Shown here in pieces: positions 7,630 to 14,454 of a DNA stretch of 29,680 nt (position 1 is the first letter of the stretch; every line of letters starts with the position of its first letter). The stretch comes from a virus. A program made the position numbers and the translations under genes. Under the pieces are notes generated by a model, which made no database searches, was not told the origin of the DNA, and was given only the letters and a program-made list of their open reading frames with translations. Where the stretch lies: IMG/VR virus record IMGVR_UViG_3300037041_000765, positions 1-29,680 of that record. The stretch is one strand, 5' to 3'.

Positions 7630-7685
7630 AATTGTATGCTTTAGAAAATACATATTATAATATATATTTTCTAAAGCATACAATT
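7630..7685. promoter_or_regulatory. 21-bp perfect inverted repeat containing a bidirectional promoter
   Basis: Positions 7630-7650 and 7665-7685 are exact reverse complements. The 14-bp centre contains ATTATAAT, itself palindromic. Each strand therefore reads TTGTAT, 18 nt, TATAAT. The left-facing copy would start the KilA-N mRNA a few bases upstream of its Shine-Dalgarno. A repressor dimer on the arms would cover both -35 boxes. Alternatively the RNA of any upstream transcript folds into a long hairpin next to the ribosome site. Confidence 0.8.
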
Positions 7686-10064: not shown

Positions 10065-10480
10065 CGAATTACACAATCGAATTACACAATCGAATTACAC
10101 AATCGAATTACACAATCGAATCACACAATCGCTCTACACAATCGCTCTACACAATCGCTCTACACAATCGCTCTACACAATCGCTCTACACAATCGAATC
10201 ACACAATCGAATTACATAATCGCTCTACACAATCGCTCTACACAATCGCTCTACACAATCGAATTACACAATCGAATCACACAATCGCTCTACACAATCG
10301 CTCTACACAATCGCTCTACACAATCGCTCTACACAATCGCTCTACACAATCGCTCTACACAATCGAATCACACAATCGAATTACACAATCGCTCTACACA
10401 ATCGCTCTACACAATCGCTCTACACAATCGCTCTACACAATCGCTCTACACAATCGCTCTACACAATCGAATTACACAAT
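10065..10480. repeat. 32 x 13-bp tandem array with three unit variants
   Basis: Exactly 32 units of 13 bp fill the interval. Every unit except number 12 (ACATAAT) ends ACACAAT and starts CG; the variable part is AATT (A), AATC (B) or CTCT (C). The order is AAAAB, C5, BA, C3, AB, C6, BA, C6, A. Degenerate units (CAATCGTTTTGAA) precede it. The array sits between the terminator of the GP88-like operon and the promoter of the small-gene operon, in DNA that should not be transcribed, which points to a cis-acting protein-binding or replication element. A long forward reading frame across it is a by-product of the stop-free unit. Confidence 0.95.
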
Positions 10481-10485
10481 CTCAA

Positions 10486-11494: not shown

Positions 11495-11698
11495 TTAGTC
11501 CATATCGAAGTCATAGATTGACGCAATAATCACGTCACCTTTTATAAATATCTCATTGCAATGATCATCGATATTGATGCATGAGTATTTTTTTTGAGAT
11601 TGGCAATAGTCACCTTTTATATAAACCTTTTTAGATTCTATTTTACGTTTTAAAATATCGCCTTTGTTAAGAGTTTTTAAAGCTTGCATGTTAGTCAC
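11495..11698 (-). CDS. 67-aa ORFan, first gene of GP88-like operon
   Basis: The protein begins MTNMQALKTLNKGDILKRKIESKKVYIKG and continues with CINIDDHCNEIFIKGDVIIASIYDF, a beta-barrel-like pattern with repeated KGD turns that resembles a small SH3-like fold. The AAGGTG ribosome site is the same as for the GP88-like gene. A promoter with an extended -10 and a 9-bp dyad lie directly upstream. The function is unknown. Confidence 0.65.
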   Translation of the reverse strand: MTNMQALKTLNKGDILKRKIESKKVYIKGDYCQSQKKYSCINIDDHCNEIFIKGDVIIASIYDFDMD

Positions 11699-11711
11699 CT
11701 TGTGAAGTAAT

Positions 11712-11734
11712 AGTTAATCAGGTATTGATTAACT
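11712..11734. promoter_or_regulatory. 9-bp dyad operator at transcript start
   Basis: AGTTAATCA (11712-11720) and TGATTAACT (11726-11734) are exact reverse complements around GGTAT. The dyad begins right at the predicted start of the leftward transcript, a typical operator position. TTAATCA boxes recur at 11780-11795. Confidence 0.6.
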
Positions 11735-11741
11735 TAAGACA

Positions 11742-11772
11742 ATTCTATCATATATAATTTACAATGTGTCAA
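11742..11772 (-). promoter_or_regulatory. promoter with extended -10 for the GP88-like operon
   Basis: On the minus strand TTGACA (11767-11772) is followed after 19 nt by TGATAGAAT, that is, an extended TGn motif plus TAGAAT (11742-11747). The spacer is long, which the extended -10 can offset. It is the only good promoter for the three leftward genes down to 10541. Confidence 0.6.
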
Positions 11773-11853
11773 TTATTTAATCAATTAATCAATAGATATA
11801 AAGATGTAGGGTTATTTTGCCCACGCTCATAGACTTATGCCTACACATTTACA

Positions 11854-11865
11854 ATGTTATAACAT
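11854..11865. repeat. 12-bp palindrome
   Basis: ATGTTATAACAT is a perfect palindrome at the left edge of the dyad cluster. Confidence 0.7.
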
Positions 11866-11879
11866 AACATATGATATCG

Positions 11880-11918
11880 AATTATTAGATATAGACCTTT
11901 ACTGTATATCTAATAATT
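11880..11918. repeat. 14-bp perfect inverted repeat
   Basis: Positions 11880-11893 and 11905-11918 are exact reverse complements around an 11-nt loop. The arms read AATTATTAGATATA and its complement. There is no U-tract pattern typical of a terminator. Confidence 0.85.
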
Positions 11919-11937
11919 AGATAACTAGATAATAACC

Positions 11938-12058
11938 CTATATAAATCAATAACTTAAAAATGCCCATAGCTACACGATAATGACATAAGGCAAGCCGTA
12001 GTATTACTTTATTATTATCGTGTCTTATATCGCAAATATAAGTAATTGATTTATATAG
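11938..12058. repeat. nested inverted repeats (14-bp outer, 10-bp inner)
   Basis: The outer arms 11938-11951 and 12045-12058 match over 14 bp; the inner arms 11973-11982 and 12014-12023 match over 10 bp (ACACGATAAT). A 7-bp hairpin (12024-12030 with 12036-12042) sits beside the inner arm. The 121-bp unit can fold as a branched cruciform or RNA. ATAACCCTAT (11932-11941) also pairs with ATAGGGTTAT (12081-12090). Confidence 0.85.
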
Positions 12059-12064
12059 CCTTTT

Positions 12065-12143
12065 GCTTATAGCCTATGTTATAGGGTTATAAGTCTATAT
12101 ATGATAGCTTATCGCTATCATCGGTTTGCTATGGGCTATAAGC
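12065..12143. repeat. second nested inverted repeat (10-bp outer, 8-bp inner)
   Basis: GCTTATAGCC (12065-12074) pairs with GGCTATAAGC (12134-12143). Inside, ATGATAGC (12101-12108) pairs with GCTATCAT (12114-12121) around TTATC, and CCTAT/ATAGG (12073-12077, 12081-12085) offers an alternative. Confidence 0.8.
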
Positions 12144-12421
12144 TATCGGTTTGAGTATGTTTGCGTTCTAGGACTATCTGTTTATTTAAATTTGCTGTAG
12201 GCGTAGAACCTAGACCCCCATGCCCCCAATTTTATAGCAACGAGCCTGGCTCTATTCACTACTATTACGCACAGCCAAATTCCATTTTTCAAAAAATATA
12301 TTCCACACAGCCAAACCCCCCTATGTCTTTATATTTCATAGACAAAAAAAATTTTATATTGTAAATTTTAAAAAAGCATGTTACAAATGCTAAACAAACT
12401 ACAACCTAACCTGTAGACAGA

Positions 12422-12925
12422 ATGGCAAGACACATCGATTCCGAAGCAATTGACGTTATTTTTGACGAGAAAGATAAGTCAAAAGTAATATACATGAGCG
12501 ACCCTCATGGAAATAACCCACCGTTACTTACAGAACAAGCGGCGCTAGAGTCTTTACTTTCGCGCTATGACTATCAGCTTATAAACTCTACCAATAAAAT
12601 GCGCCAATTCATTTTGGCAAAACTTTTTAGATTGGCAGATGAATCCGAAGACGAAAAAACCGCGCTCAAAGCATTAGAGACACTTGGCCGTGTCACCGAG
12701 ATTGGCTTATTTACAACTAAGATCGAAGTATCTGTGGCCGACAAACCAACAACGGACCTAGAGTCTGAACTCAGGGGCCTATTAAAGAACTACGCCAAGA
12801 CTGAAAAGCAGGTGGTAGAAGAGCTCACTGATGAAGAACTGCGTGGCTATGCCGAAGATGAGGTAGAGGATGAAGAAGAGTATGAAGAAGAGTATGAAGA
12901 AGAGTACACGGATGAGGATGAATGA
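12422..12925 (+). CDS. terS: probable terminase small subunit
   Basis: The 167-aa protein directly precedes and overlaps (ATGA) the large terminase. Residues of about 38-95 are helical (ALESLLSRYDYQLINSTNKM, then DEKTALKALETLGRVTEI), fitting the DNA-binding and oligomerisation core of small terminases, which recognise the packaging site. The C-terminus is a run of Glu, Asp and Tyr with an EEYEEEYEEEY repeat (about 148-163), unusual and possibly a large-subunit contact. Only a weak ribosome site precedes the ATG. The assignment rests on position and helix pattern, not on a clear family motif. Confidence 0.65.
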   Translation: MARHIDSEAIDVIFDEKDKSKVIYMSDPHGNNPPLLTEQAALESLLSRYDYQLINSTNKMRQFILAKLFRLADESEDEKTALKALETLGRVTEIGLFTTKIEVSVADKPTTDLESELRGLLKNYAKTEKQVVEELTDEELRGYAEDEVEDEEEYEEEYEEEYTDEDE

Positions 12926-14454
12926 GCGATCATTTAGGTGATATCTCTTTAGACGAAGACTTTCTTACTGCAGCACTTGCAGCTGCGCCTGTTAGTGAAA
13001 GAGCAAAGCTTATTGAGTTGATTGATGAGTTACGCAGGCGCCATGAGCGCGAATTTGCGCAGGAGAATTTCTTAGCCTTTGTGCAAAAGGTATGGCCCGG
13101 ATTTATTTATGGGCGCCACCATGCCAGAATGGCACAAGAATTTGAGAAAGTGGTTAACGGCAAGAATAAGCGGCTAATTATTAACCTTGGTCCTCGGCAC
13201 ACTAAGTCCGAGTTTGGGTCGTATTTGTTACCTGCGTGGTTTCTTGGTAAGTACCCTGATAAAAAGATCATACAATGCTCGCACACAGCCGAACTTGCTG
13301 TAGGTTTTGGTCGTAAGGTCCGTAACTTAGTGGCTAATCCGCTCTATCAGGAAGTGTTTCCTGGTGTGGAGCTGCAGACTGACTCTAAAGCTGCGGGTAG
13401 ATGGAACACCAGCGCGGGTGGTAACTACTTTGCGATCGGTGTCGGTGGTGCTGTAACTGGTATTGGTGCAGACATACTCATCATTGATGATCCACACTCA
13501 GAACAAGAGGCTGCAATAGCTGCAAGTAACCCTGAGATCTATGATAAGGTGTACGAGTGGTACACATCAGGTCCAAGACAGCGATTACAGCCGGGCGGGG
13601 CCATAATTATAGTCCAAACCCGATGGTCGAAACGGGACCTTACGGGCCAAGTTAGGCAAAAAGAGTTAAACGGGGGTGGGGACAAGTGGCGAGTAGTAGA
13701 ATTACCTGCCATTTTGCCTTCTGGTAAGCCATTATGGCCTGAGTTTTGGACAATAGAGGAGTTAGAGGCTACTAGAAACGCCATTGATGTCTCAAAATGG
13801 CAAGCTCAGTACCAACAAAACCCAACTTCTGAAGAAGGGGCTATAGTAAAACGAGAATGGTGGAAGAAATGGGAGAATGAGTCCCCACCACCTACTGATT
13901 TTATACTACAAACGTGGGATACTGCGTTTGAAAAACACAATAGAGCAGACTATTCGGCGTGTATTACGTGGGGAGTGTTCTATCATGCTGATGAAAATGG
14001 GGTCACACAAGCCAATATCATCATGTTAGATGCCAAACGTGACCGTATGGAGTTTCCTAGGCTCAAGGAAGAGGTACTGGACGAGTATAAGTACTGGCAA
14101 CCCGATGCGTTGATCATAGAGAAAAAAGCGTCTGGCGCCCCTTTAATTTACGAATTACGAGCAATGGGTGTTCCAGTATCAGAATTTACTCCTACTCGTG
14201 GTAATGATAAGATATCTAGACTAAATGCCGTAGCCGATGTATTTGCATCAGGTCGAGTATGGGTTCCAAACACACGTTGGGCAGATGAGGTTATAGAAGA
14301 GGTTGCATCATTCCCTGCGGGTCAACATGACGACTATGTTGACTGTGTATCAATGGGAATCTCTCGATTTAGGAAAGGTGGGTTTCTAAGTTTGCGCTTA
14401 GACTCTGACGATATGAATGATTACTTTGTAGGAAAACGCGCAGCGTATTATTAA
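12922..14454 (+). CDS. terL: terminase large subunit (ATPase and nuclease)
   Basis: The 510-aa packaging motor carries Walker A GPRHTKSE (90-97), Walker B DILIIDDPH (184-192) and coupling motif QTRW (232-235). The C-terminal RNase H-like nuclease shows D333 in LQTWDTAFE, E400 in DALIIEKKASG and D470/D471 in AGQHDDYVDC, the three acidic clusters expected. The protein pumps DNA into the prohead through the portal and cuts the concatemer. The Walker A loop has HTKS where many terminases carry HGKS, a variant I associate with environmental phages. The start overlaps the upstream stop by four bases. Confidence 0.95.
   Translation: MSDHLGDISLDEDFLTAALAAAPVSERAKLIELIDELRRRHEREFAQENFLAFVQKVWPGFIYGRHHARMAQEFEKVVNGKNKRLIINLGPRHTKSEFGSYLLPAWFLGKYPDKKIIQCSHTAELAVGFGRKVRNLVANPLYQEVFPGVELQTDSKAAGRWNTSAGGNYFAIGVGGAVTGIGADILIIDDPHSEQEAAIAASNPEIYDKVYEWYTSGPRQRLQPGGAIIIVQTRWSKRDLTGQVRQKELNGGGDKWRVVELPAILPSGKPLWPEFWTIEELEATRNAIDVSKWQAQYQQNPTSEEGAIVKREWWKKWENESPPPTDFILQTWDTAFEKHNRADYSACITWGVFYHADENGVTQANIIMLDAKRDRMEFPRLKEEVLDEYKYWQPDALIIEKKASGAPLIYELRAMGVPVSEFTPTRGNDKISRLNAVADVFASGRVWVPNTRWADEVIEEVASFPAGQHDDYVDCVSMGISRFRKGGFLSLRLDSDDMNDYFVGKRAAYY

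Follow-up and report, generated by a model that had tools for sequence, protein, structure and literature searches.

A two-fold symmetric element with inverted IHF-type sites at a divergent gene boundary of an environmental phage: a candidate control point

Between the leftward genes and the rightward terminase and head genes of the window (an entire IMG/VR record of 29,680 bp, analyzed as one stretch) lies a symmetric element of 107 bp (HP2, 11945..12051), in which two inverted sites of the integration host factor (IHF) type flank two inverted half-sites. This inverted, fixed-length architecture is shared, with its pattern of variation, by 13 distinct copies, those of the window and 12 relatives. 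The nested hairpins look mostly like a mirror-image pair of docking sites for IHF, the DNA-bending protein of the host, and the control element is probably one in DNA, not RNA. As an overall explanation, which we hold at a little under even confidence, we propose an IHF-bent, two-fold symmetric element that would control the divergent early/late boundary. A striking set of hairpins can thus consist of inverted protein sites rather than RNA, and the element would provide a point of host-factor control, open to experiment, in a poorly studied phage related to the abundant HTVC023P-type phages.

The divergent gap and its dyads

The window encodes an exonuclease, a primase-type protein, the terminase large subunit (TerL), a portal and a major head protein. 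Mechanical ORF calls leave a 723-bp gap (11699-12421) without supported genes, with leftward ORFs starting at 11698 and the rightward terminase operon at 12422; this agrees with the first-pass annotation, which had placed the dyads in a noncoding gap where transcription diverges. The gap is AT-rich (GC 0.30), and the same layout, with a minus-strand ORF upstream and a plus-strand ORF downstream, was found in the relatives L004, L008, L010 and L014. TerL is encoded on the plus strand at 12922..14454 (PHROG 38, E 4.7e-108). Its nearest named phages are 023Pt_psg01, HTVC027P, DSL-LC04, MinM2/Pag-Yong1 and HTVC023P, to which it is 49-54% identical over most of its length; unlike the window, three of four such pelagiphage-type relatives have their annotated small terminase elsewhere, and the fourth has no annotated one in view. 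In the window, the plus-strand ORF at 12422..12925 is probably the small terminase subunit gene (terS), judging by its position and its conservation in relatives. PHROG and Pfam searches with this ORF returned no match, a profile search of solved structures hit nothing but designed filament proteins, and its AlphaFold2 model had a mean pLDDT of 55.8. The claim that the small terminase gene adjoins the dyads thus stands as regards adjacency to the terminase genes, while a family match for terS was not obtained. Comparison of 11690-12925 with annotated phages gave no DNA similarity, a tRNA search gave nothing above threshold, and sigma-70-like promoter sites were as frequent as expected (9 found vs 8.4), with none prominent.

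Within 11880-12143 we found six perfect dyads of 8-14 bp (arms of at least 8 bp, loops of 3-120). An upstream hairpin (HP1) has 14-bp arms at 11880-11893/11905-11918 and an 11-base loop. The central outer dyad, of 14 bp (11938-11951/12045-12058), encloses a central inner one of 10 bp (11973-11982/12014-12023); downstream, a 10-bp dyad (12065-12074/12134-12143) encloses one of 8 bp (12101-12108/12114-12121); and a crossing 8-bp dyad pairs 11928-11935 with 12012-12019. The earlier count of at least five, two of them nested, is therefore borne out. Its description as far beyond chance holds in part, as judged from 500 dinucleotide-shuffled versions of these 264 bp. Four dyads of at least 10 bp were observed, compared to a mean of 0.32, a number reached in 0/500 shuffles, and the longest arm of 14 bp was reached in 1/500; the bare count of dyads of at least 8 bp (6 vs a mean of 2.6) was reached in 32/500 and is only mildly unusual.

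We then compared the region among relatives, taking the best 80 of 598 loci encoding a TerL relative (598 of the 600 stretches retrieved by pattern did so). Among these 80, L004, L005, L008, L010 and L014 gave blastn alignments to the portion of the gap that holds the hairpins. Further homologs were fetched with patterns of the central dyads, and most of those not derived through TerL came from patterns that require the arms. Thirteen distinct elements resulted: the window, L004, L096, L184, L008, L010, L095, L094, L014, L187, L185, L186 and L092. Duplicates were not counted (L097 and L088 equal L004, L087 equals L008, L089 equals L014 and L090 equals L010), and L005, whose element is cut at the contig end, was excluded.

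The component dyads evolve differently among these relatives, which speaks against the earlier view of one ordered set. At HP1 (11880..11918) the place is retained and the sequence swapped: it is of the TTATTAGATA type in the window and L096, GTAC in L004 and L184, CCGAAC in L008 (imperfect in L010 and L095), AGATATA in L094 and TAACATA in L014 and L187, and in L185, L186 and L092 no upstream hairpin rose above shuffles. Summed over the 13 homologs, which are related rows and not 13 independent events, upstream hairpins scored 106 compared to 70.8 in shuffles (0/100). Such exchange might reflect an operator that can be swapped or, in L008, a terminator acting in both directions. Of the downstream pair, the outer dyad (12065..12143) has not been kept by L004, L096 or L184, and the inner one (12101..12121) is retained in L004 and L096, broken in L184 and not seen in the other homologs. 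The downstream sum was mildly above shuffles (84 vs 72.9; 2/100).

A short palindrome, ATGTTATAACAT, at 11854..11865 recurs in the flanks of L004, L008, L010 and L186. Closer to terS, two direct repeats on the plus strand, TATTACGCACAGCCAAA and TATTCCACACAGCCAAA, occupy 12263..12315. A TTCCGCWCAGYCAA-type block precedes terS here and in the upstream flanks of L006, L008, L013, L068, L073 and L076; it is retained in more distant relatives than the hairpins are, and seven scanned loci matched the pattern used.

Architecture of the central element and the case for protein sites

The central element keeps a constant order in its homologs: an IHF consensus, 18/19 bp, CGATAA, 33/34 bp, TTATYG, 18 bp and an inverted IHF consensus. 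Its length is 107 or 108 bp in all 13 copies, even though identity in the interior falls to 43% (median 56%). In the window, the predicted left site, AATCAATAACTTA, lies at 11945..11957 on the plus strand and the right one, AATCAATTACTTA, at 12039..12051 on the minus strand; both match WATCAANNNNTTR, the IHF consensus as quoted in an excerpt of PMC4585315. The left inner half-site, ACGATAAT (11975..11982, plus strand), has its CGATAA beginning 18 bp past the IHF-type site, and the right one (12014..12021, minus strand; ATTATCGT as read on the plus strand) leaves 33 bp between CGATAA and TTATCG. Variants of the inner hexamers are CAATAA in L010 and, on the right, GTATCG in L004 and TTATTG in L092.

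The whole window holds four matches to WATCAANNNNTTR, two of which are the arms. Both arms match in the window and in the 12 further distinct homologs, a set that had been filtered on WATCAANNNNTTR. To avoid the bias of patterns built on the arms, we also scanned with a pattern restricted to the inner part; this recovered six loci, and in 6/6 both arms matched. In the 13-homolog alignment neither arm varies in its ATCAA or TTA columns, and arm mismatches fall in the columns that match the free positions of the consensus: unpaired cells occur in 5/13 at W and, for three N columns out of four, in 1/13, 4/13 and 3/13. Pairs also break frequently beyond the 13-bp sites, at the three outermost pairs and at those adjoining CGATAA. 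We therefore consider it probable that the outer dyad is two inverted IHF-type sites, and a pair of inverted half-sites for a putative partner is the best reading of the inner one. A search of 23 phage records found no IHF/HU gene over the cut-off (0/23).

The first-pass annotation had also offered a structured RNA or a cruciform. Folding of 11870-12160 is indeed strong on both strands (z = -6.1 on the plus and -6.3 on the minus strand, with 0/200 shuffles as good in each case), and five of six element sequences gave z values of -4.7 to -6.0, the truncated L005 giving -1.1. Yet inverted repeats fold both strands alike, so this lends an RNA no support. We next stated the structure explicitly and shuffled the letters of the 3' arms. 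Among the 13 homologs 84.4% of cells were paired, compared to 83.5% after shuffling (reached in 85/500), the covariation score was reached in 68/500, and each of the five measures used was reached by 58 to 246 of the 500 shuffles. RNAalifold gave -8.7 kcal/mol with an unfavorable covariation term of +0.24. The named structure beat its slid versions, as expected of any conserved inverted repeat. An Rfam search returned nothing above threshold, and the arms mutate without compensation in homologs, which is what the annotation itself had named as counting against its reading. A structured noncoding RNA or RNA leader is thus very improbable. A cruciform is an unnatural reading of the main dyad too, since the loop would span 93 bases and the arms are protein-type sites.

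Candidate functions of the element

Two bending sites, two inverted half-sites and fixed lengths would call for a symmetric nucleoprotein complex. We propose that host IHF would bind the inverted sites at 11945-11957 and 12039-12051 and bend the DNA sharply at both ends of the fixed-length segment. A DNA-binding protein of the phage, probably acting as a symmetric dimer or larger assembly, would then dock on the inverted pair of ACGATAAT half-sites that the bent segment presents. With the leftward genes on one side and the rightward terminase/head genes on the other, the complex might govern transcription of both divergent units, for instance by helping to turn on the terminase operon. Transcription control is, as an output, plausible though short of probable; an origin is doubtful, packaging somewhat more so, and any other output a little less likely again. 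Our preference for divergent transcription control has three grounds: the symmetry of the element, its position where the leftward genes meet the terminase operon, and its absence from a relative whose terminase is almost identical.

That relative, L006, has a TerL 95% and a TerS 85% identical to those of the window, and the inverted pair is absent throughout its 48.7-kb contig, the gap being occupied by a tandem array; the element is therefore dispensable or replaceable. Since IMG/VR contigs are fragments, an absence is weak evidence unless the contig covers the entire gap, which that of L006 does. Among 15 records searched whole, an inverted pair at 70-95 bp spacing occurred in five, in one copy each.

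Two known systems pair IHF with a partner protein. In lambda cosB, IHF works with TerS, and the excerpted account (PMC4856287) places a single IHF site, I1, with the TerS sites R3 and R2 around it, all to one side of the cut. Both cases combine an IHF-type site with sequence-specific partner sites, set at defined distances and near terminase genes; the window differs in having two inverted IHF-type sites outside two inverted half-sites, known here from sequence. At the promoter of the Caulobacter GTA cluster, IHF works with the activator GafY, again a phage-type partner acting before a phage-like gene cluster. There, however, an IHF element and a GafY element lie upstream of one promoter, and the excerpted account (PMC11150451) describes no symmetric 107-bp architecture.

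By analogy with I1, IHF could bend a cosB-like packaging site for the small terminase subunit, and the element does lie ~275-485 bp upstream of putative terS in 12/13 homologs, the contig of the 13th, L092, ending 146 bp after the element. We nevertheless think packaging unlikely: cosB is one-sided and the element here symmetric, a TTCCGCACAGCCAA-type block (window 12263-12315), also present in more distant relatives, lies closer to terS and is more widely retained, and the absence of the inverted pair from L006 despite the near-identical terminase speaks against an indispensable packaging site. Contig ends upstream of TerL do cluster, with 25/62 at 500-1249 bp, but several contigs begin in tandem arrays, and assembly breaks explain the cluster at least for these. 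A physical genome end as the cause of the clustered starts was likewise weakened, as L009, L012, L013 and L026 begin in such arrays; the heptamer array of L012 also occurs in L092, after the element and close to the end of that contig.

Replication could instead start here, with IHF and an initiator protein bending and opening the AT-rich gap for bidirectional synthesis. Consistent with an origin are the symmetric element in an AT-rich strand-switch gap, a local minimum of cumulative GC skew at 11-13 kb, the primase-type gene in the window and the tandem arrays beside the element in L014, L185, L187 and L092. The skew, however, follows gene direction and is not independent, no initiator gene was identified, and the L006 contig lacks the pair, which leaves an origin a possibility of roughly one chance in a few. 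An iteron reading of the window gap was rejected, as TAACATT-type repeats gave only one hit there.

Highly unlikely, finally, is a recombination or mobile element whose inverted arms would be terminal repeats or integrase sites. Similar inverted pairs do enclose tRNA-/tmRNA-like 3' ends in a few contigs with integrase genes, and L086 carries five arm-plus-partner copies as well as inverted copies of the pair. Integrase genes were nonetheless present in just 9/49 records searched, none of them the window or an element-bearing relative in that set, so that an integrase site was rejected as a general explanation. The integrase search gave no hit for the window or for the partial contigs of L004, L008, L010, L014, L092, L095 and L097; the location is the same across the clade, each of the five records that have the pair holds a single copy, and no target duplication was seen by eye.

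The arm motif in other phages and neighboring repeats

The 13-mer AATCAATRACTTA is clustered between genes in many unrelated viral contigs (L188-L366 and L098-L123; GC 0.30-0.64), with direct pairs the commonest arrangement among the matches listed; at least seven such pairs in inverted arrangement lie on a single 305-kb contig. In viral contigs the arm motif formed inverted pairs in 26 stretches, divergent pairs in 68 and direct pairs in at least 120. In the genome collection, inverted arm pairs numbered none with a wider-spaced pattern and five stretches with a narrower one.

To see how the motif varies, we used loci L188-L366, picked for two copies of it. In 73 imperfect neighboring copies, 84/114 mismatches fell at the four N positions, compared to 117/330 in a far control. 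Position 1 changed from A to T in 10/10 of its mismatches and position 13 from A to G in 4/5; 15 further mismatches hit fixed positions of the consensus. This distribution recovers the W, NNNN, R pattern without its having been imposed, which independently favors IHF as the protein, and near-copies of AATCAATRACTTA thus vary mainly as the IHF consensus permits. When the pattern leaves the N positions free, the arms within a single element often carry different letters there. The wider motif also favors TRAC at the N positions and G or C beside TTA, beyond what the IHF consensus demands, which counts against the IHF reading, and its sites have an AT-rich flank on the ATCAA side.

Nearly all arm-motif sites (433/454) lie outside ORFs of at least 90 aa. 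A 17-bp site followed by AGG bears what we take to be a resemblance to a phage RNA-polymerase promoter; this reading was rejected, since gene direction does not bias how the sites are oriented (172 vs 173 of 474). It is conceivable, though we think it improbable, that AATCAATRACTTA with its conserved flanks (G/C inside, TATAAGG-like outside) is a widespread intergenic-cluster signal of environmental phages with a reader more selective than classical IHF, the window element being its version with two-fold symmetry, linked to a partner site specific to the clade. A literature search gave no text match for TAAGTCATTGATTTATA, and the titles and abstracts in the search results held nothing on paired inverted IHF sites in such phages. 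An intergenic motif common to many phages could be mined for IHF-dependent control in uncultured viruses.

Other loci place the motif in different settings. A lone IHF-type site stands amid four to six TAACATT/GAACAAT repeats at L028:1128-1205, L029:2610-2711, L032:2820-2904 and L056:1711-1804, where these repeats reach 20-36 per kb, compared to 1-3 per kb over the locus; this looks like an iteron-type origin or a regulatory site. In L131, L148, L171, L178 and L137, inverted IHF-type pairs surround tRNA-/tmRNA-like 3' ends, as judged by eye. They are likely attachment sites, and an integrase gene was present in 4/4 of the records searched (L131, L171, L178 and L137). The five copies in L086 join an IHF-type site to another partner sequence within ~1 kb, again a site-plus-partner unit; the array lies ~1.3-2.4 kb before a small-terminase-like gene whose protein, from a more distant relative, is 39% identical.

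Several repeats and insertions accompany the terminase region. TerL matches in L096, L185, L186 and L187 are interrupted by insertions of ~0.1-1.0 kb, for which an Rfam search found no family; an intein or an unlisted intron is possible. Short, phage-specific tandem arrays with units of 7-27 bp stand beside the element or replace it in the gap (L012:1-125, L009:1-127, L006:4027-4149, L014:3924-4079, the starts of L026 and L013, and the upstream flanks of L185 and L187), and contigs often end there. In the window itself, a 28+28-bp palindrome without a loop, 96% complementary, lies between two leftward genes at 7630-7685, and a 13-bp tandem array of 31.7 copies of TACACAATCGCTC lies between leftward genes at 10070-10481; L004 begins in a similar array.
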